Under the pieces are notes generated by a model. The model worked only from the letters and a program-made list of their open reading frames with translations, ran no database searches and had not been told where the DNA came from. Below, one piece after another: positions 5,498-53,430 of a stretch of DNA of 53,430 nucleotides. Numbering within the stretch: position 1 is the stretch's first letter; every line of letters begins with the position of its first letter. Source of the DNA: a virus; IMG/VR virus record IMGVR_UViG_3300048927_000178, positions 1 to 53,430 of that record. One strand, written 5' to 3'. Both the position numbers and the translations under genes were made by a program.

Positions 5498-5893
5498 TCA
5501 GAAGGGAATATCCGGATCAAACTGATTGGATGCGGTAGATTGCCCACGAGATTGCGGCTGATTCGATGGAGCGTTTGCAGGGTTTTTTGATGAAAAATCC
5601 AGAGAATTAACGATTAAAACTGGCGTGATTCTTTTTTGTCCTTGCTTGTCCTCCCACTCTTCAATCAGAAACTCTCCAACCACTGTAACCTTAATTCCCT
5701 TTGTTAGGTGTTGGGGGAGTTTTTCTGCCCTTGCCCCGAACATTTTGCATGTTATCCAACTGGTCTTTTCATGCTCGCCAAATCCTTGTGTTACGGGCAG
5801 TGAAAATTGCGCAACCGCTTTCCCGGCAGTCGTCCATCTTTGCTCGCAATCTTTGCCTATATTCCCGCTAAAGGTGCAATTATTAATAGCCAA
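5498..5893 (-). CDS. ssb: Single-stranded DNA-binding protein
   Basis: 131 aa. The N-terminal OB fold (about residues 1-105) is followed by a Pro/Gln/Ser-rich linker and the SSB acidic tip DPDIPF, which recruits host repair proteins. It would protect ssDNA during Erf-mediated annealing and replication. The start codon is a rare TTG at 5893, with AAGGAG 6 nt upstream inside the HNH gene. This appears to be a consequence of the HNH insertion. The family normally starts with ATG. Confidence 0.93.
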   Translation of the reverse strand: MAINNCTFSGNIGKDCEQRWTTAGKAVAQFSLPVTQGFGEHEKTSWITCKMFGARAEKLPQHLTKGIKVTVVGEFLIEEWEDKQGQKRITPVLIVNSLDFSSKNPANAPSNQPQSRGQSTASNQFDPDIPF

Positions 5894-6521
5894 TGTATTC
5901 TCCTTTTAGTGCAGCCCTAATTGTGTCTTCGCAGACGCCAAACTGTTTAGCTATCTGCCTTTTCTGAACGCCTTCGCCTCTACCGTTTTTGGCGACAAAC
6001 TTCATGGAACGTATTTGCTGCACTTGCTCTTTGGATAAAATCGGATTGTGGTTCAGATTGGCGCTACTAATCGGGTTATGCCGATTTCTTTCCGTCATAT
6101 CCCGCATGTTGTCCTTTTGCGTACCAATCTCTAGGTGGTTAGGGTTTGTACATTCAGGGTTGTCACATTTATGCCTGACGACCATGCCAAGTGGAATCTC
6201 GCCATGATGCAGTTCGTAGCTAACGCGGTGGGCTTTTTCCTTGCGCTGCTTCGATCTCCTGCCAAGTCTTCCTGATAAAATCCCATACCCGCGATTGTCC
6301 TTCGTTCCATCCCACTTCCAGCACTTATCTGCGCCAAGTTTTACCTGTCTTTCCTCTAATCTTTCGAAAATCGATTTGGCCCTGATTTTGGCAAAGTGCA
6401 CTGAAACACACTTGACTGAACAGAAGCAGCGGTTAGCCCACTGAGACTCTGAGTCTCCATAACTCTCAATGAACTGCGCGCCGCAATCTCTACATGATTT
6501 AGACCGACGCTGCTTGGTCAT
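5883..6521 (-). CDS. HNH homing endonuclease, free-standing
   Basis: 212 aa. The N-terminus has paired Cys motifs (CRDCGAQF, CFCSVKC). The core is an HNH_3-type nuclease (HRVSYELHHGEIPLGMVVRH, then CDNPECTNPNHLEIG). The C-terminal helix-turn-helix (KRQIAKQFGVCEDTIRAAL) is likely used for target recognition. It lies between erf and ssb. Its ATG overlaps the erf stop (TAATG), and its stop overlaps the ssb start by 11 nt, which marks it as a mobile insertion. Confidence 0.88.
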   Translation of the reverse strand: MTKQRRSKSCRDCGAQFIESYGDSESQWANRCFCSVKCVSVHFAKIRAKSIFERLEERQVKLGADKCWKWDGTKDNRGYGILSGRLGRRSKQRKEKAHRVSYELHHGEIPLGMVVRHKCDNPECTNPNHLEIGTQKDNMRDMTERNRHNPISSANLNHNPILSKEQVQQIRSMKFVAKNGRGEGVQKRQIAKQFGVCEDTIRAALKGEYIGY

Positions 6522-10523: not shown

Positions 10524-10829
10524 TCAACCTCTCGCCGTCACGTTGTCTTTAGATTTCCGATAGCCAGCTGCGTAAATTGCAACGTCTGTCAGACACATTC
10601 CTGATTCAATCTCACCGCCGATGTACTTCGCCGCACCCGCCAGAATCTGCTTGTGATACTCCGTCTCGGTGTCGACTGCCTTCACCACACGATCTGACGG
10701 CTTGCGGTTCAGCGTCAGGATAGGGCGGCACGCTGGCAAAGCTTTCACGCCAACCGACAGGGGGTTGGCTTGCTTCCATGCCGATTGCTTCTCAGCACGA
10801 GCTGCACGGCGTTTTTCTTGTGCATTCAT
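10524..10829 (-). CDS. N: N-type antitermination protein, lambda-like N-terminus
   Basis: 101 aa. The arginine-rich motif MNAQEKRRAARAEKQSAWKQ, with Trp at position 18, is followed by ANPLSVGV and RPILTLNRKPSDRV. This aligns closely with lambda N (from memory). The C-terminus (DVAIYAAGYRKSK) instead resembles the end of P22 gp24. N binds boxB RNA and lets RNA polymerase ignore terminators. The ATG at 10829 has AGGAG 7 nt upstream. nutL lies between PL and this gene, as in lambda. Confidence 0.85.
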   Translation of the reverse strand: MNAQEKRRAARAEKQSAWKQANPLSVGVKALPACRPILTLNRKPSDRVVKAVDTETEYHKQILAGAAKYIGGEIESGMCLTDVAIYAAGYRKSKDNVTARG

Positions 10830-10944
10830 GGTCATTCTCCTGTCAGTTAGCTTTGGTGGTGACGTGCTGCGACGCTGATCTCCGCAGTTGCGCTTTCTCA
10901 CGCTGCAATTCACACCACCCCAAAGCTTGCTGCTTTGAATGTTT

Positions 10945-10975
10945 GCGCTTTTTCAGCGCTATCTGTTAAGGAGCA
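10945..10975 (-). promoter_or_regulatory. nutL: nutL site (boxA and boxB)
   Basis: On the minus strand, boxA TGCTCCTTAACA (10964-10975) is followed by boxB GCGCTGAAAAAGCGC (10945-10959). The boxB has a 5-bp stem and a GAAAA pentaloop like lambda. It lies downstream of PL and upstream of N, where an N-loading site is expected. Confidence 0.85.
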
Positions 10976-11026: not shown

Positions 11027-11056
11027 AAGATACAGATAAAACTGTATTATCGTCAA
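11027..11056 (-). promoter_or_regulatory. PL promoter
   Basis: On the minus strand, -35 TTGACG (11051-11056) and -10 TATCTT (11027-11032) are separated by 18 bp. Two operator dyads overlap the -10/spacer and the -35, so repressor binding would block this promoter. Confidence 0.7.
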
Positions 11057-11100
11057 CAGGTAAAACTGTATTATTTGTGAATTCAGAGGTATCAAACTGT
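11032..11100. promoter_or_regulatory. Left operator cluster (OL): ACAG-N6-CTGT dyads
   Basis: Perfect dyads lie at 11032-11045 (spacer ATAAAA) and 11056-11069 (spacer GTAAAA), 24 bp apart. A degenerate half-site (ATCAAACTGT, 11091-11100) lies 31 bp further. The 14-bp architecture is that of phage 434 operators (ACAA-N6-TTGT), with the fourth base changed from A to G. Confidence 0.8.
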
Positions 11101-11130
11101 ATTTGAAGGCAAATAAATTTGTATTGGGCG

Positions 11131-11153
11131 AAAAAAAACCGCCTTTCGGCGGC
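11131..11153 (-). terminator. Terminator after the CI repressor gene
   Basis: On the minus strand, CCGCC-GAAA-GGCGG is followed by eight T residues. It separates the repressor transcript from the PL region. Confidence 0.85.
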
Positions 11154-11172
11154 TTGTTTGCAATATGAGTGG

Positions 11173-11802
11173 TTATCGTTTGCGGCGGTAGATGCGATGC
11201 TCAACCATTGTGCCGATAATCTTGATTGCGTGATCGGAACTAGCCATGGTTGGGTAGTCGTTGTTCAGTGGAACCAGCTCGAAGTGTTGCTTACCTTCAG
11301 AGAAGAACGTGGGGCGATACTTTTTGAAAGTGGCCTCATGTTCACCGTTCTTAGCCACAACGAATTCACCTGGTGCTGGCTCTATCTCCGGGTCAACGAC
11401 AATAACATCCCCGGCCTTGAAATCAGGCTCCATCGAGTCACCAATGATCTTTAGAGCGAAGGTGTACTGTGACCAATCCATGTCGGTCAGGACGTATTCA
11501 AAGCTGCCGTCCATTGCCTCTATTGCTGGTTTAGTGGCGAGTGCCCCAGCCTGCACATAGTTAATCAAGGGAATCCTCCTTGTATTCACCTCGCTAACTG
11601 GCACGAAGGTGCCTCCATTCATAAGCCAAGCTGGCTCACATTTCAGGGCATCAGCCATACCAACAATATTGCGAGGTTTGAGGGTCTTTCCATCCTCAAT
11701 ACTAGCCCATGATTGTTGTGTGATGCCCGCTTTTTCTGCCACATCGGTCTGAGTGAGACCGAGCTCTAATCTTCTCTGCTTAACCCGATCTGCAAGGCTC
11801 AT
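11173..11802 (-). CDS. cI: CI-type prophage repressor with S24 autoprotease domain
   Basis: 209 aa. The N-terminal HTH (residues 1-65) is close to 434 repressor; the recognition helix reads TQQSWASIEDGKT. The C-terminal LexA/CI-like domain has the cleavage pair A85-G86 (YVQAGAL), nucleophile S123 (GDSMEPDF) and general base K160 (EATFKKY). It should maintain lysogeny at OL and OR and be cleaved during the SOS response. The ATG at 11802 has GAGG 5 nt upstream; an in-frame GTG/ATG extension to 11826 lacks family similarity. Confidence 0.95.
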   Translation of the reverse strand: MSLADRVKQRRLELGLTQTDVAEKAGITQQSWASIEDGKTLKPRNIVGMADALKCEPAWLMNGGTFVPVSEVNTRRIPLINYVQAGALATKPAIEAMDGSFEYVLTDMDWSQYTFALKIIGDSMEPDFKAGDVIVVDPEIEPAPGEFVVAKNGEHEATFKKYRPTFFSEGKQHFELVPLNNDYPTMASSDHAIKIIGTMVEHRIYRRKR

Positions 11803-11831
11803 ATGTTCCTCTCCATTTACACACAAGCTTC

Positions 11832-11890
11832 ACAGTTAAAGCTGTAATTGACAAACAGAACTAACTGTTAGAGAATACAGATAAAACTGT
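11832..11890. promoter_or_regulatory. Right operator cluster (OR): three ACAG-N6-CTGT dyads
   Basis: Perfect dyads lie at 11832-11845 (spacer TTAAAG), 11855-11868 (AACTAA) and 11877-11890 (ATAAAA), with 22-23 bp centre spacing. They lie between divergent cI and cro and overlap the PR elements, the classic three-site OR layout. Confidence 0.85.
11848..11876 (+). promoter_or_regulatory. PR promoter
   Basis: The -35 is TTGACA (11848-11853), the spacer is 17 bp and the -10 is GAGAAT (11871-11876). The middle and right operators overlap it. It drives cro, cII and the replication genes. Confidence 0.75.
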
Positions 11891-11902: not shown

Positions 11903-12121
11903 ATGGATACTATTTCTCAACGCCTCAAACAGAAGCGCATGGAGTTAAATCTTACTCAGGCGCAGTTAGCTGAGAAAGCTGGCATGAAGCAGCAATCGTT
12001 ACAGCGAATTGAAGATGGTACGACCCAACGTCCACGCTTCCTGTTTGAACTGGCCTTAGCGCTCAAGTGTGATCCGCTCTGGTTGATGTACGGCAACAAA
12101 GGTGGCAGTAAGGCCGCCTAA
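11903..12121 (+). CDS. cro: Cro-type repressor, 434-like
   Basis: 72 aa single HTH protein. Much of it aligns with 434 Cro: [20 protein letters not shown], then [20 protein letters not shown] and [12 protein letters not shown]. It would bind the same operators as CI with opposite site preference and promote lytic growth. GGAGG sits 7 nt before the ATG. At the recognition-helix position equivalent to 434 residue 33, it has Arg where 434 Cro has Leu. Confidence 0.95.
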
Positions 12122-12128
12122 TCTTTCC

Positions 12129-12160
12129 CGCTCTTAAACATCCCCGCCCTGAAAAAGGGC
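12129..12160 (+). promoter_or_regulatory. nutR: nutR site (boxA and boxB)
   Basis: boxA CGCTCTTAAACA (12129-12140) is followed by boxB GCCCTGAAAAAGGGC (12146-12160). This boxB is the same 15-mer as lambda nutR boxB (from memory). It lies just after cro, the lambda position. Confidence 0.9.
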
Positions 12161-12242: not shown

Positions 12243-12524
12243 ATGGAATCAGCAAACTACAGCAAACCAACAGAGAGCGAGATTAACCGCACTCAAACAG
12301 ATCTTCTACTGGCTGTGTCTCAAATGACCGGGCGAGAGTTCGCTAAAGGCGTTGGGTGCCATGAGACGAAGATTAGCCGCGCTGACTGGCGCTTTATTGC
12401 AGCTGTGATTTGTACGGCTCGCATGGCTTGGGAAGTTAGCCCGATGGGCCGGTTAGTGCAGGAAACGATTGAGGCGATAAGCGCCAAAGAAAAAGCCCCA
12501 AACGCGGGAACGTTTGAGGCTTAA
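12243..12524 (+). CDS. cII: CII-type transcription activator
   Basis: 93 aa. An HTH region contains GREFAKGVGCHETKISRADW, then helices (FIAAVICTARMAWEV) that in lambda CII make the tetramer, and a polar tail. Length and position (after cro, before the O-like gene) match lambda cII. It should activate PRE at the TTGC repeats just upstream. Confidence 0.85.
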   Translation: MESANYSKPTESEINRTQTDLLLAVSQMTGREFAKGVGCHETKISRADWRFIAAVICTARMAWEVSPMGRLVQETIEAISAKEKAPNAGTFEA

Positions 12525-40459: not shown

Positions 40460-41184
40460 TGATTGAATCTGAATGCCTGGCGTATGCCGCAGAGTCAGCA
40501 AATGAGGTGTGCGGGCTGATTATCGACGGTAACCGGTTTTGGCGTTGTGCGAATGAACATACCGAACCGGGGTGTAACTTCCGGATAGGCGAAAATGACT
40601 GGCTTGAAGCAGAAACGGCGGGGGAAATCACCGCCGTTTTTCATTCTCACCCTGAGCAAAAAATGGTGCTGTCCGCTGCCGATCGCACTGCACAACTGGC
40701 TACTGGAATCGAATGGTGGCTGGCAAGCGGGGGAGAGCTACGCAAATTCCGGCCTGTGCCGCATTTGCTGGGGCGCCGGTTTGAGCATGGCGTGATGGAC
40801 TGCTACACGCTGTTTCGGGACGCATACCACCTCTGCGGCATTGATTTGCCCCACTTTGAGAGAACCAACGGTTGGTGGGTGCGAGGTGAAAACCTCTACC
40901 TGAAGAACATGGCATCCAACGGATTTCACGATGTTGGCTTCAAGGCTATTCAGCCAGGGGATGTGATTATCCGCCGCGCATTTCCCGAGTGCGACCCATG
41001 CCACGCCATGATCTGGCTTGGTGACAACATCGTCCTGCATCACGAAGTGCACGGCAGGCTTAGCCGCCGCGAACCGCTTCGCCAGATTCACGTACCCCTG
41101 ATCCACTCCATCTGGAGGCATGAACAATGCTCATCGCTAGACCTAAGAGGAATTTATGATGATTTCAAATCAAAAACCCTATGA
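40456..41184 (+). CDS. K: Tail tip protein K (JAMM/MPN plus NlpC/P60)
   Basis: 242 aa. The N-terminal MPN/JAMM metalloprotease-like domain has FHSHPEQ. The C-terminal NlpC/P60 domain has the Cys of GVMDCYTLFRDAYHLCGIDL and the His of CHAMIWLGDN. It is a tail-tip hydrolase. The last 18 residues (after RHEQC) derive from the HNH insertion; without it the frame would stop directly after RHEQC. Confidence 0.9.
   Translation: MMIESECLAYAAESANEVCGLIIDGNRFWRCANEHTEPGCNFRIGENDWLEAETAGEITAVFHSHPEQKMVLSAADRTAQLATGIEWWLASGGELRKFRPVPHLLGRRFEHGVMDCYTLFRDAYHLCGIDLPHFERTNGWWVRGENLYLKNMASNGFHDVGFKAIQPGDVIIRRAFPECDPCHAMIWLGDNIVLHHEVHGRLSRREPLRQIHVPLIHSIWRHEQCSSLDLRGIYDDFKSKTL
41126..41131. repeat. Left junction repeat of HNH insertion
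   Basis: AATGCT at 41126-41131 is repeated at 41705-41710. Removing the 579 bp between them restores a K stop codon and an intact gpI start with its own GGAGG site. Confidence 0.6.
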
Positions 41185-41719
41185 GGAAATTTGGTTGCCA
41201 GTTCGTGGCTATGAAGATTTTTATAAGGTTTCCTCATCTGGTCTTGTATGGCGCATAGGCAAGTCAAAATGTTTAAAGCAGCACAAAGATCGACACGGAT
41301 ATCTGTACGTAACTCTGTGCGTTAATGGAAAGCCCGCGAAGAAATATGTTCATCGCTTGGTCGCAGATACTTTCATTGTTGGCGGATCGGACTTGTTGCA
41401 GGTCAACCATATCGATGGAGTTAAATCGAACAATGTTTACTTAAATCTGGAGTGGGTGACCGCTAAAGAGAATATAAGACATGCATTTAATACCGGCCTT
41501 AATAGGGCTGGCGCGCACCTTGCGAGTGGCAAAAAACATATGTGGTTTCAGGGCGTAGTCGTAGCCACATGCATCGAAAGCGGTAAGGAGACTTACATGC
41601 ATGGCGCCAAAGATATCAGGGCGAATGGTTTTACTGATTCTCTCGTTTATCGCTGCGTTAATGGAAAGCTTCAGCATCATAAGAAACACACGTTTCGGAG
41701 GGTGAATGCTGATATTTAA
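41156..41719 (+). CDS. HNH homing endonuclease (NUMOD4 type) between K and I
   Basis: 187 aa. The NUMOD4 motif is EEIWLPVRGYEDFYKVSSSG; the HNH core is VHRLVADTFIVGG and VNHIDGVKSNNVYLNLEWVT. The C-terminal part is a DNA-binding tail. GAGG lies 5 nt upstream. It overlaps K by 28 nt and I by 14 nt, in an otherwise strictly conserved gene pair, so it is a mobile insertion. Confidence 0.92.
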   Translation: MMISNQKPYEEIWLPVRGYEDFYKVSSSGLVWRIGKSKCLKQHKDRHGYLYVTLCVNGKPAKKYVHRLVADTFIVGGSDLLQVNHIDGVKSNNVYLNLEWVTAKENIRHAFNTGLNRAGAHLASGKKHMWFQGVVVATCIESGKETYMHGAKDIRANGFTDSLVYRCVNGKLQHHKKHTFRRVNADI

Positions 41720-42239: not shown

Positions 42240-45200
42240 ATGGGCTCAGGCGGCGGCGGTGGCAGTACTCCAAAATTAATCGACGACAACCTCAAATCGA
42301 AGCAATTCCTCCGCGTTCTCGACCTTATCAGTGAAGGCCCAATCTACGGACCGGTAGACCAGCAGCACCTTTCCTCGTTCATGCTGAATAAGACGCCGGT
42401 CACCGATTCCCTAGGCGGCACGACGATTAATGGCGTGAGCGTGGCATGGCGCCCGGGCACGGCGACACAGACGCCAATCAACGGCTTTAATACCATTGAG
42501 GCTACAACGGTCGTTAACACGGACGTGACTCAGGCAACGCCTCTGGTGCGCACGGTTACGGACACTGATGTCGATCGCGTTCGTATGAACATCGGCGTGT
42601 CCAGCCTTGTTGAGCAGGACAGCAAAGGTAATCAGCACGAAACATCTGTGACGATGGTAATCGAAACCCGCTCTGGTAGCGCCGGTGCATGGCAAATCCA
42701 GAAGACAGTGACGATTACCGGTAAGCAGTCTGGCGAATATCTTGAAGCACACCTGTTTGATGCGCCTGAAACTAAGCCATTCGACATCCGCCTGCGCCGC
42801 GTTACAGCTGACAGCTCTAGCGACCTGCTGAACAACGGAACCATCTGGAACAGCTTCACCGAAATCACCGACGATAACCTGTCATACCCCTATGCTGCTG
42901 TCGCTGGCTGCGTGGTTGACCGTGACCAGTACACAGATACGCCTTCTCGCACCTACCACCTGCGCGGGTTGATTGTCGATGTGCCGGATAACTATGACCC
43001 GATCGCCAGAACTTACACCGGAATTTGGACAGGTGGGTTCAAATCGGCATGGACGAACAATCCAGCCTGGTTGTTCCGCGCACTGGTGAAGAACACGCGT
43101 TACGGTCTGGCACGACGAGCGGGCTATGTTGATGTCGATGACGGAAGCCTGTACGTGCTTTCGCAGTTTTGCGATCAGCTTGTCGATGACGGCTTTGGCG
43201 GCAAAGAACCACGCTTCACGCTTAATGCCTACATCACCGAGCAGAAAAGCGCGCGTGACCTGCTGGACGATATCGCGGGCATGTTCCGTGGCATCGCATT
43301 ATGGGATGGCATGCGTTTCTCAGTGATGCTGGATAACCCGCAAGACCCGGTTGCATCAATTACTAACGCGAACGTCGTGGATGGGCTGTTCACTTACAGC
43401 TCTATGAAGCGATCGGAGCGCTACAACGCGGTTATCGTCTCATGGACAGACCCGAATAACGGCTGGTCACAGGTTAAGGAATATGTGTCTGATGATGGCC
43501 TAATTGACCGCTACGGCTACAACGAAACCACTATGGAGGCTTTCGGTTGCACCTCTCGCGGACAGGCATTCCGCACCGGTAAATGGTTAATTGAAACAGC
43601 CAAGCGAGAAACCAAGAAAACCACCTTCAAGATGGCGCGAGAGGCAATTCGCTTCATCCCCGGCGACGTGGTGGAGGTGCTGGATAACAACTATGCAGCC
43701 ACGCGTCTTGGCGGTCGAATCATCTCGCACAGCGGCACGTCAATAACGGTTGATGCTGATGTGTCTGAGTTGGCCGGCGGCGGCGACAAAATGTCGATCA
43801 TGGGTTCAACTGGCAAGTTCATTAAATACGAGATTGCCAGTGTCACGGGTCGCGTTATCCGCCTCAAAACTGCGCCAGCGTGGGTGCGTGATGGCACCGT
43901 GTTTGTGATTTCTACTGACGAAGTCGCGCCGCGCCTTTTCCGCATCATGGGCATTTCCGAAGACGAGAACAACTCGGTTTACTCCATCTCTGCAACGCTG
44001 TACGACCCGAATAAGCAGGCTGTAGTCGATGACGGCGCGGTATTCGATACACCCGGCGATACGCTAAATGGTTATCGTGTGCCGAACATTGAGAACCTGC
44101 GCATCATCAACGTCAACAGCGAGACCATTCAGGTATCGGCGACCTGGGAGACTGCAACGCTCACCAAGAAGATCGTTTTCGAGCTCTATGTATACAGCAT
44201 GGACGGCAAAGTGGTTGCGCAGTATGAAACTGACCAGTTCCGTTATGACTTTTACGGCCTGGAGTCCGGGAGCTACTCGCTCGGTGTGCGTGGCCGGAAT
44301 GAGAACGGGATGAAGGGAGCAGAGACGCAGGTTAGCCTGGTGATCGGCGCTCCATCTGCGCCAACTTTCATTCAGTGGACGCCTGGCATCTTCTCCGCCG
44401 ACATCGTGCCGGTAATGAGTGTGTCAGCAACAACCGATACCTCTTTTGAGTTCTGGTACACCGGCGAAGTTCCTGCGAGCAGCATTGGCGCCGTGGAGAG
44501 TGAAGCGCAATTCCTCGGCCGCGCTTCACAGTGGACGCTTCACGGGCTGAAGGCTGACACGACCTACTACATGTATGTGCGCACCAAGAATGCATTCGGT
44601 GTATCGGCATTCGTACAGGCATCAGGTCAGGCTTCATCGGATATTCCGGGCATGATTGATTATATCGACGATGCGATCCGAAACTCAGAAGCTTTCGAGA
44701 ATCTGACCGGAAAAATCGACACAAACATCGAAGGCATGCTTCAGAACGCGCTGGATAACAACGCAACTGTCGATCACCAGTTCGCTATTAATGGAGAGGT
44801 TCGCGCTGACATCATTACTGTGAAAACCACAGTTGCGACTGTGTCACAGGCTATGGCGCAGTTGGAAAATCAGGTACAGGCTCAGATTGGTGACCTGAAT
44901 GCGGCCGTGAATGAAAAACTCACGGCAACCGTAACGGATAACGGGACCGCTAAAGCCTCCTACACATTAAGGGTGGGGATTACTCGCAGCGGTGTTTATT
45001 ACGGTGCTGGCATGGCTATAGGAATAGAGCCATCTGGCAGCTCTTATAAATCAACGCTGGCCTTCAATGCTGATCAGTTTGGCATTTATACCGGAAGTAA
45101 CGCCGGAAACTACCAGTTAGCATTCGCGACTGTAAATGGACAGGTCTTTATAAACGATGCATTTATCAATTATGCGTCAATAACACTGGCAAAGGTTGGT

Positions 45201-48418: not shown

Positions 48419-48658
48419 ATGCCCCGCGAGTACGAAATCAAAGATGCCTTCAGGTTCGCAATCAAACGCGATGCTGCTGGCCGGTACACCGTAAGCACAC
48501 TCGACTTTGTCACTGAACTTGAGCGCCTGAACTGGCATTACACGCCACGTCAAGCGAATAACTGGATCGAGGCTCACAAGTCAGTATTCCGGGATATCTC
48601 AACATCGGAAGGTGAGGAGCGCGTGTTTCAGGTATTCAATCCAAACGGCGGCATGTGA
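48419..48658 (+). CDS. SOS-operon protein upstream of umuC
   Basis: 79 aa. PREYEIKDAFRFAIKRDAAG, RQANNWIEAHKSVFRDIS and VFQVFNPNGGM. It occupies the umuD position but is not UmuD-like (no Ser-Lys protease motif). The ATG at 48419 is favoured by the distance from GGAGG; 48413 is possible. Its stop overlaps umuC (TGATG). Function unknown. Confidence 0.7.
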   Translation: MPREYEIKDAFRFAIKRDAAGRYTVSTLDFVTELERLNWHYTPRQANNWIEAHKSVFRDISTSEGEERVFQVFNPNGGM

Positions 48659-49920
48659 TGTTTGCGCTCGTTGACGTGAACTCGTTTTACGCCAGCTGCG
48701 AGACGGTGTTCAGGCCTGATTTGCGCGGTAAGCCGGTTCTGGTTCTCAGCAACAACGACGGCTGCGTCATCGCCCGAAGCGCCGAAGTAAAAGAGCTGAA
48801 AATCCCGATGGGTGCGCCTTACTTCAAGCTGAAGGACGAAATCCGCCGGCACAAGATTCACGTGTTCAGCAGCAACTATGCGCTATACGCCGACATGAGC
48901 AACCGGGTGATGACCATACTTGAAGATATGGCGCCGTCGGTTGAGGTCTATTCAATTGATGAGGCATTCATGGACGTCACCGGACTGGACAGATTGCAGT
49001 CATTCGATGAACTCGGCCGAAAGGTGAGAGCGCGAATAAAGCAGGAGGCGCACCTCACTGTTGGCGTTGGCATCGCACAGACAAAGACACTGGCGAAGCT
49101 GGCTAACCACGCTGCTAAAAAGTGGACGAAGACCGGCGGCGTGCTTGACCTTTCTGACGTTGAGCGGCAGCGAAAACTTATGGCGCTGATTGACGTTGAG
49201 GATGTATGGGGCGTAGGAAGGAGAATCGCCAAACGGCTAAAAATCATGGGCGTTAACACAGCCCTGGATTTAGCGAACAGCCCCATCAAGCTGATGCGCG
49301 ATAACTTCACTGTCGTAATGGAAAGAACCATCCGAGAACTGCGCGGCGAGCCATGCCTCGAGCTGGAAGAGTTCGCGCCGACTAAGCAGCAGATTGTCTG
49401 CTCACGTTCATTTGGTTCACGCATCACTGAATACGAGGACATGAGGCAGGCGGTTTGCTCGTACGCAGAACGCGCAGCTGAGAAACTGAGAAGGGAGCGT
49501 CAGTATTGCAGTCAGGTAGCGGTCTTCGTCCGAACAAGCCCACACGCAGAGGGCGAAGTGTTCTATGGCAACCAGGCCATGAGCAGACTCCTGACCTCAA
49601 CGAATGACACGCGAGAAATAATACGCGTGGCCATGCAGGGACTCGACCACATCTGGCGCGACGGATGCCGGTATATGAAAGCTGGCGTGATGCTGAGCGA
49701 CTTTTACAGTCAGGGCGTCTCACAGCTCAATCTCTTTGACGAATTCAAGCCACAGGCCAACAGCGAATCGCTGATGCGTGTCGTTGATGGTCTGAACCAG
49801 AGCGGGAAGGGGAAATTATGGTTTGCAGGACAGGGTATCCAGAAATCCTGGGAGATGAAGCGCGAAATGTTGTCGCCGGCATACACCACCAGACTGTCGG
49901 ACCTGCCAGTAGCGAAGTGA
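48658..49920 (+). CDS. umuC: UmuC-like translesion DNA polymerase
   Basis: 420 aa Y-family polymerase. Catalytic motifs: FALVDVNSFYASCE at the N-terminus and VYSIDEAFMDVTG (about residues 97-109). A helix-hairpin-helix (VEDVWGVGRRIAKRLKIMGV), a little-finger domain and a clamp-binding motif (QLNLFDEF) follow. Full length. It needs a UmuD' partner, which must come from the host or from the unusual downstream gene. Confidence 0.95.
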   Translation: MFALVDVNSFYASCETVFRPDLRGKPVLVLSNNDGCVIARSAEVKELKIPMGAPYFKLKDEIRRHKIHVFSSNYALYADMSNRVMTILEDMAPSVEVYSIDEAFMDVTGLDRLQSFDELGRKVRARIKQEAHLTVGVGIAQTKTLAKLANHAAKKWTKTGGVLDLSDVERQRKLMALIDVEDVWGVGRRIAKRLKIMGVNTALDLANSPIKLMRDNFTVVMERTIRELRGEPCLELEEFAPTKQQIVCSRSFGSRITEYEDMRQAVCSYAERAAEKLRRERQYCSQVAVFVRTSPHAEGEVFYGNQAMSRLLTSTNDTREIIRVAMQGLDHIWRDGCRYMKAGVMLSDFYSQGVSQLNLFDEFKPQANSESLMRVVDGLNQSGKGKLWFAGQGIQKSWEMKREMLSPAYTTRLSDLPVAK

Positions 49921-51704: not shown

Positions 51705-52619
51705 TTACACCTGTTTTTGCTTCTCTTTCCGCTTCTGTTCCGCACGCGCTTTGGCTTTCGCCGCTTCACTCATATCGTTACGAATCTGCGCATGGCTGAT
51801 CAACGCAAATATCAGCGTACCGCCCGTGATGTTGCCAAGCAGCGTAGGCAAGGCAAATGGCCAGAAGAATTCGTACCACGGCAGCGTGCCCGCAAACACC
51901 AGATACAGCACCTCGACTGAACCGACCACGATATGCGCTAAATCGCCTAACGCCACCAGCCAGGTCATCATCACAATCACTACAATCTTTGCGCCACCCG
52001 CATACGGGAACATCCATACCATGGTGGCGATAATCCAGCCTGATATCACCGCATTAGCGAACATTTCGCTTGGTGAGTTCACCATCACTTTTTCACTGAT
52101 GGCGGTAAAGGCCTGACGCGTCGCATCGTCGAATATTGGCATATGATTAAAGGCCAGCGCCCCCAATGCGGTGCCAATCAGATTGCCGAGCAGCACCACG
52201 CACCAGAGCCGTAACAGCAGCGCAAAGTTGCTGCCGGTCGGTTTGTGCATCACCGGCAAAACGGCGGTAACGGTATTCTCGGTAAACAGTTGCTGGCGCG
52301 CCATAATCACGATGACAAAGCCAAAGGTATAACCCAAATTTTCCAGTAAAAATGCGCCCGGCACGCCTTTAAGATGGACCTGAAAAATGCCTTTCGCCAT
52401 CAGCGAAGCGCTCATTGACAGTCCCGCCGCAACCGCGGACCAGAGCAGCGCCATGCCGTCACGCTCGAGCTCTTTTTCCCCATCCTGGCGTATCTCTTCA
52501 TGAATCGCCGCAGCCTGCGAGGGCAGGGCATCTTCATCGACTTCTATCTCCTTACCTTGCTCCTTCTCATCACTCTCTACATCGTTGTCACTGTTTGAAA
52601 TCGATGGTGATTGTTTCAT
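51705..52619 (-). CDS. yfdC: Formate/nitrite transporter family protein (YfdC-like)
   Basis: 304 aa. An acidic N-terminal tail (about residues 1-55) precedes six membrane helices with FNT-type signatures (MAKGIFQVHLKGVPGAF, ENLGYTFGFVIVIMARQQLF, GNLIGTALGALAFNHMP) and a basic coiled C-terminus. The ATG at 52619 has GAGG 5 nt upstream. In E. coli, yfdC is also beside argW, so the host order is conserved. Confidence 0.85.
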   Translation of the reverse strand: MKQSPSISNSDNDVESDEKEQGKEIEVDEDALPSQAAAIHEEIRQDGEKELERDGMALLWSAVAAGLSMSASLMAKGIFQVHLKGVPGAFLLENLGYTFGFVIVIMARQQLFTENTVTAVLPVMHKPTGSNFALLLRLWCVVLLGNLIGTALGALAFNHMPIFDDATRQAFTAISEKVMVNSPSEMFANAVISGWIIATMVWMFPYAGGAKIVVIVMMTWLVALGDLAHIVVGSVEVLYLVFAGTLPWYEFFWPFALPTLLGNITGGTLIFALISHAQIRNDMSEAAKAKARAEQKRKEKQKQV

Positions 52620-52762
52620 GTTTTCCTCAGGTGATAATGCCATTGCGTCATAAGCGTAGCTGGTTTTTGCAAGGTCGATTTGTTACGAAGATTCAAATTA
52701 AGAGTAACGAAATTTTAACTGAGTTGGATTTTTGAGCAATTTGTTGATCTGGGGCGCACGAA

Positions 52763-52778
52763 TACCCCATTTGGGGTA
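52763..52778. promoter_or_regulatory. Possible NarL/NarP-type 7-2-7 site upstream of ccmA
   Basis: TACCCCA-TT-TGGGGTA is a perfect 16-bp palindrome. Each half differs by one base from the TACYYMT heptamer. The E. coli ccm operon is NarP/FNR-regulated. The site lies about 85 bp before the ccmA start in the 243-bp divergent intergenic region. Confidence 0.45.
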
Positions 52779-52862
52779 AGTGGGAGCCAGCTCACAGACT
52801 TCGGCCCACAGATTCAATGTGGTATTATCCCCGCCTCATTCATTGCCGCGATTCTCCCTTCT

Positions 52863-53430
52863 ATGCTCGAAGTCATTAATCTCTCATGCGTTCGTGATGA
52901 GCGAACCTTGTTTCATGGGTTGAGCTTCCGCGTGCAACCGGGTGACATTGTGCAAATTGAAGGGCCAAACGGAGCCGGGAAAACTTCGCTGTTGCGCCTG
53001 CTGGCCGGATTAAGCCGGGCGGAAGAGGGCGACGTAACGTGGCAGTCACAGCCCCTTCGTCAACAGCGCGAAGTATGGCAACAAAATCTGCTCTATCTTG
53101 GCCATCATCCCGGCGTGAAATCGGTACTCTCACCGCTAGAGAACCTGCATTTCTGGCACGGTAGCAGCAAAGAAGACGCGATTTTTGCCGCGCTTGAGCA
53201 GGTCGATCTGCTGGGCTTTGAAGAGGTGCCGGTGGCACAACTCTCCGCCGGACAGCAGCGGCGCGTGGCATTAGCACGCTTATGGCTCAGTCCGGCGTCG
53301 GTGTGGATCCTCGATGAACCCTTAACCGCCATCGATAAAGGCGGTGTGGAAAAATTAATGGCGCGATTCGTCAGCCATGCCGATAACGGCGGAGCGGTGA
53401 TTCTGACCACGCATCAGGATCTGCCCGATC
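52863..53430 (+). CDS. ccmA: CcmA, haem exporter ATPase (3' end outside window)
   Basis: 189 codons are visible and open to the window edge. ABC ATPase motifs: Walker [11 protein letters not shown] (about residues 36-45), signature [15 protein letters not shown], Walker [13 protein letters not shown] and the switch THQD. The sequence start [17 protein letters not shown] is CcmA-type. With CcmB/C/D it works in cytochrome c maturation. It is host chromosome. Confidence 0.93.

Follow-up and report, generated by a model that had tools for sequence, protein, structure and literature searches.

ACAG operators in a 434-type lambdoid immunity region show no one-to-one link with residue 33 of CI or Cro

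Introduction

Which parts of a recognition helix decide the base at position 4 of a 434-type operator? The CI repressor and Cro of phage 434 are a textbook model of DNA recognition: in the complex of the 434 repressor with DNA, Gln28 touches base 1, Gln29 base 2 and Gln33 base 4. Phage 434 itself carries the helices TTQQSIEQLE (CI) and VKQQSIQLIE (Cro) on ACAA sites, and among natural phages the same scaffold occurs with either base at position 4. The locus described here lies in an IMG/VR virus record of 53,430 bases (the whole stretch analysed, hereafter the window) and combines ACAG sites with altered residues at position 33 of both proteins. A first-pass annotation had proposed that base 4 and residue 33 changed together, that Arg33 of Cro recognises the G, and that a distinct specificity had arisen on the 434 scaffold; it named Ser33/Arg33 proteins on ACAA operators in related phages as an observation that would count against this. 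Comparing helices with half-sites in this way is not new, since Hall, LeFevre and Cordes (2005, J Mol Biol 350:667), as cited in PMC4488713 and PMC4997575, correlated Cro recognition helices with OR half-sites.

Methods

Sets of CI, Cro and OR were drawn from phage records, IMG/VR contigs and species-representative genomes. The widened set consists of these earlier sets together with the results of a CI profile search and E. coli chromosomes. At each locus the divergent pair was located, both helices were aligned to 434 numbering and three sites were fitted, scoring bases 1-3 of each half only and leaving base 4 free. Prophages of Marinomonas, whose Cro comes from another family, stand outside the main set. 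Trees were built on 55-110 columns and are poorly resolved.

Results

The window is very probably a prophage, since it includes lambda-like tail genes and an integrase and ends on the right in genes that are not phage-borne. That edge (51705-53430) holds a formate/nitrite transporter gene and a ccmA-like ABC-transporter ATPase gene, probably host DNA past the integrase. Between the tail genes and the integrase lies a gene for a UmuC-type translesion polymerase (48658-49920; IMS family with DUF4113), and there are two homing-endonuclease-like HNH endonuclease genes (41156-41719 and 5883-6521), one of which has NUMOD4 and sits among the tail genes. A prophage of Pantoea endophytica (L277) has a Cro identical to that of the window and the same five operators.

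The immunity region is whole and conventional in the lambda/434 style, running in the order N with nutL, PL with OL, cI, OR with PR, cro, nutR, cII, O and a DnaC-like loader. On the minus strand, cI (11173..11802) encodes a 209 aa repressor with a 434-type HTH (HTH_3, 3e-10) and an S24 autopeptidase domain (Peptidase_S24, 5e-21), and a terminator-like hairpin (11136..11155) lies 3' of it. The cro gene (11903..12121, plus strand; 72 aa) matches 434 Cro at E=1.5e-26. By consensus match, PR (TTGACA, 17 bp, GAGAAT; 11848..11876, plus) is placed as in 434, and PL (TTGACG, 18 bp, TATCTT; 11027..11056, minus) runs across OL1 towards its target, the N antiterminator gene (10524..10841, minus; N_peptide 1e-12, N36 1e-10, with a match to HK544 N). 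On the other side, cII (12243..12524, plus; Phage_CII 3e-14) follows nutR (12129..12160, plus), which is made up of boxA CGCTCTTAAACA (12129-12140) and boxB GCCCTGAAAAAGGGC (12146-12160), the latter presumably lambda boxB. The nutL boxB, GCGCTGAAAAAGCGC (10945..10959, minus), differs from it, and a single N apparently serves two boxB stems.

The best relatives of CI and Cro among solved structures are the 434 repressor and 434 Cro (entries include 2OR1, 1PER, 1RPE and 3CRO), and a CI with 434-like HTH and S24 domains beside a Cro of the 434 Cro family makes this a 434-type immunity region. Alignment and domain matches bear out the first-pass description of both proteins as 434 relatives that keep Gln28 and Gln29 in their recognition helices. 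Aligned to the 434 repressor, the CI of the window reads I26 T Q28 Q29 S W A S33 I E and the Cro reads M26 K Q28 Q29 S L Q R33 I E, so that the two reported substitutions, Ser for the Gln33 of 434 CI and Arg for the Leu33 of 434 Cro, are correct. The recognition helix of CI (residues 26-38) is ITQQSWASIEDGK, with the Ser33 codon at 11701-11703 on the minus strand; Arg33 of Cro in 434 repressor numbering is residue 35 when Met is counted as 1, and its codon is at 12005-12007 on the plus strand.

Two OL and three OR sites had been described as perfect ACAG-N6-CTGT dyads, and all five are present, starting at 11032, 11056, 11832, 11855 and 11877 in the positions that OL1, OL2, OR3, OR2 and OR1 occupy in phage 434. 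The motif occurs 6 times in the window against 0.63 expected (at most 2 in 100 shuffles), and five copies within the immunity region are far beyond chance. The sixth (44829-44842) stands isolated within the tail tip gene, where it is probably a chance occurrence at 0.63 expected per window. On the plus strand, OR3 ACAGTTAAAGCTGT (11832..11845), OR2 ACAGAACTAACTGT (11855..11868, between the -35 and -10 of PR) and OR1 ACAGATAAAACTGT (11877..11890) have the 23/22 bp spacing of the 434 OR. OL1 (11032..11045, plus), OL2 ACAGGTAAAACTGT (11056..11069, plus) and a degenerate OL3 AGGTATCAAACTGT (11087..11100, plus) were ordered by analogy with 434, and OL1 has the same letters as OR1, ACAGATAAAACTGT. 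OL3 lies at +31 from OL2, as in 434, and has a single good half-site (CTGT); relatives have ACAT...CTGT there. The arrangement of three OR and three OL sites of 14 bp with a 6-bp spacer and 434 spacing is therefore present, OL3 as a half-site only. Base 4 is G in all ten good half-sites, which places the window outside the 434 operator class although its switch is of the same kind. The statement that ACAG replaces the ACAA dyads of 434 holds for these ten half-sites, but not for 434 as a whole: 434 OR3 is ACAAGAAAAACTGT, one half of which is ACAG, so 434 is not ACAA throughout.

The main set holds 92 distinct combinations of CI helix, Cro helix and OR, which fall into 41 ACAG, 47 ACAA and 4 mixed groups. 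ACAG phages come from Pantoea, Klebsiella, Enterobacter, Citrobacter, Yersinia and E. coli, and 9/5426 complete E. coli genomes carry ACAG prophages; the letters of OR1 in the window recur in 30 of the 41 ACAG groups. Across OR1 and OR2, base 4 is A in 177/188 half-sites of the ACAA class and G in 93-100% of those of the ACAG class. The right half of OR3 in the ACAA class has G at base 4 in 32/47 groups, compared with 2/188 of the OR1 and OR2 half-sites. This OR3-specific mark at base 4 is absent from ACAG phages, in which bases 5-6 distinguish OR3 from OR1 instead (mostly T/T versus A/T).

Two groups of prophages may be intermediates: those of Xenorhabdus (L290, L294), with mixed A/G at base 4 and Thr or Val at CI residue 33, and those of Marinomonas (L307-L319), with mixed ACAA/ACAG sites, Ile26 and Lys33 in CI and a Cro of another family. 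In a 434-like immunity region of Candidatus Fukatsuia symbiotica (L332) the CI frame is short (75 aa) and is separated from a Cro remnant by a transposase-like gene, and the OR dyads are still recognisable.

An open-literature search on exact operator strings returned no operator papers for the ACAG class; the class may already be described elsewhere, as such a search misses most subscription journals.

Arg-to-guanine contacts are common in protein-DNA recognition generally, and it is this that would favour Arg33 of Cro as the reader of G. Residue 33 of Cro in the ACAG groups of the main set is, however, A in 14, Q in 15, R in 4, S in 4, D in 3 and Y in 1, and in the ACAA groups Q in 29, L in 9, R in 8 and S in 1. 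The Cro helix KQQSIQQIE is found on both classes (ACAA in L058 and L378, ACAG in L020 and L293), and the three OR sites of the window recur unchanged in the L030 group of prophages, where the Cro helix is QQSIQQIE with Gln33. Residue 33 of Cro changes 14-15 times on the trees compared with 1-8 times for operator class (14 and 3 on the concatenated tree); it predicts operator class with an accuracy of 0.77 in the main set and shows no association with it on the trees. Judged by this variety of residues, the helix shared by both classes, the OR triple with Gln33 and the number of changes on the trees, a reading of G by Arg33 is neither needed for these operators nor predictive of them.

Residue 33 of CI follows the operators more closely. 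In the main set it is Ser in 34 and Ala in 7 of the ACAG groups, and Gln in 35, Asn in 4 and Ser in 8 of the ACAA groups; none of the 92 combinations pairs a Gln33 or Asn33 CI with fully ACAG operators. After widening, Ser33 occurs in 40 ACAG and 17 ACAA groups. The clearest counterexample to a joint change is L180, which has Ser33 in CI (QQSIVSVE) and Arg33 in Cro (QQTIQRIE), yet carries clean ACAA sites in both OR (ACAATGTTTATTGT, ACAATATATATTGT and ACATGTAAATTTGT) and OL (ACAATTAGAATTGT and ACAATTAAATTTGT). The same two residues accompany ACAA(C) sites in L137, L138, L176-L179 and L308. Ser33 of CI also stands on ACAA in L395, L423, L434 and the L396 group, where the divergent Cro, where seen, has a different helix (QQAINRIE). 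The observation named beforehand as contrary to the claim was thus made, and a one-to-one link of residue 33 with base 4 is absent. A small residue at CI position 33 is perhaps needed for ACAG, to judge from these pairings, and is not sufficient for it. This reading rests on few events, as the group counts are not independent, and the mixed sites of the Marinomonas Lys33 CIs indicate that residues besides Ser and Ala also permit G.

Other CI positions separate the classes as well or better. Accuracy in the main set is 1.00 for residue 26, 0.955 for 34, 0.93 for 31, 0.92 for 27 and 0.91 for 33, and in the widened set 0.92, 0.82, 0.90, 0.92 and 0.82 in turn. Ile26 goes with ACAG in 41/41 main-set groups and Thr, Ala or Val with ACAA in 47/47; as the sole determinant residue 26 fails in the widened set, where L395, L423 and L434 have Ile26 on ACAA. 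Because operator class switches no more than 1-4 times on the CI trees, many positions correlate through shared descent, and these data cannot single out any one residue. Between CI residue 33 and base 4 there is one supported independent contrast, operator switches being too few for power.

Discussion

We consider the window to hold a 434-type lambdoid immunity region belonging to a large ACAG clade, whose operator class would be set mainly by the context of the whole CI recognition helix, with Cro permissive at base 4; we give this reading a probability of roughly 0.7. CI and Cro would compete at the three OR and three OL sites and thereby control PR, PRM and PL. Gln28 and Gln29 of CI would read A1 and C2, as in 434, and Ser or Ala at position 33 would remove the long Gln or Asn side chain that favours the T opposite A at base 4. 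A study of the 933W repressor (PMC3317979) names thymine methyls at inner operator positions, lodged in a recognition-helix pocket, as the usual determinant for phage repressors. Such a pocket would be lost on a change of Gln33 to a small residue. CI residues 26, 31 and 32 may then tune the seating of the helix so that G-C is preferred at base 4, and it is the combined surface of the CI helix, rather than Cro, that would set the class. Cro probably has almost no preference at base 4, which would explain the drift of its residue 33; since the right half of OR3 is usually ACAG in ACAA phages, a 434-type Cro already copes with G there. Of the distinct specificity proposed for this locus, a distinct operator class common to many phages and lacking Gln33 or Asn33 CIs stands on comparative grounds, and its basis in residue 33 does not. 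The ACAG class probably has an immunity different from that of 434.

A more specific and tentative proposal is that re-docking of the helix through residues 26, 31, 32 and 34, together with a small residue 33, moved the specificity, and that ACAG phages form a separate, unstudied immunity class. With G at base 4 of all their half-sites, such phages would be unable to use the base-4 G that marks OR3 in 434-like phages, and would have to tell OR3 from OR1 by bases 5-6 (TT versus AT) or by the site centre. Somewhat less likely is a narrower account, in which the semi-buried residues under the helix (26, 31 and 34) alone would re-dock it and set the class with no part played by a base-contacting side chain. 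The perfect split of the main set by CI residue 26, with 34 and 31 next, fits such an account, as does the helix ISQQSIEAIE (L331, L383, L386), mostly on ACAG, beside the near-identical TSQQSIEAIE (L332), mostly on ACAA. L332 is, however, a decayed prophage, Ile26 occurs with ACAA (L395, L423, L434) and with the mixed Marinomonas sites, so that residue 26 alone fails, and these residues share the phylogenetic confounding of all the others.

It is improbable that base 4 is nearly neutral, with 434-type proteins taking A or G and the two classes being drifted sets of the same or overlapping immunity. The ACAG half of 434 OR3, the mixed bases of the Xenorhabdus and Marinomonas prophages and the small number of operator switches on the tree would all be expected of a neutral base. 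Its near-invariance across OR1 and OR2 within the main classes instead argues that base 4 is under selection, and in 933W, putting G-C in place of A-T at position 4 in one half-site lowers affinity more than 5-fold (PMC3317979). Least of all do we credit a joint swap with Ser33 of CI and Arg33 of Cro as determinants and Arg33 reading G directly, for although the differences from 434 are real at both residues and at base 4, and all main-set ACAG CIs have Ser33 or Ala33, both residues occur together on ACAA and Cro residue 33 varies on ACAG.

For the textbook system, the comparison speaks against a code in which position 33 alone specifies the base. It also supplies natural controls, namely operators that are identical but accompany different Cro helices, and Ser33/Arg33 proteins that occur with ACAG as well as with ACAA sites, and it raises the question of how OR3 is discriminated once base 4 is G everywhere.

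Among known phages, the window shares its ACAG class with Enterobacter phage vB_EclS_CobraSix and Klebsiella phage ST16-OXA48phi5.2 (CI 70-74% identical to that of the window, Cro residue 33 Ala in both), with Yersinia phage vB_YenM_29.18 (CI 70-74% identical, with Ala at CI 33 and Gln at Cro 33) and with Hafnia phage vB_HpaM_Meifeng (Cro 33 Gln); our open-literature search found no operator study of these four. The L180 and L137 types (L180, L137, L138, L176-L179, L308) share Ser33 and Arg33 with the window, and the L137-type CI is 70% identical to that of the window over its full length, yet their operators are ACAA(C/T) and their helices differ from those of the window (CI QQGIVSIE, QQGIVSVE or QQSIVSVE; Cro QQTIQRIE). 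With phage 434 the window has in common the fold of CI and Cro, Gln28 and Gln29, 14-bp operators with a 6-bp spacer, the 23/22 spacing of OR, the 31 bp between OL2 and OL3, the positions of PR and PL, the nut sites, the order of the genes, and the neighbouring N and cII. Unlike 434, it has G instead of A at base 4 of its ten good half-sites, Ser33 in CI and Arg33 in Cro, a degenerate OL3, no base-4 mark specific to OR3 and no hex directly after cI.
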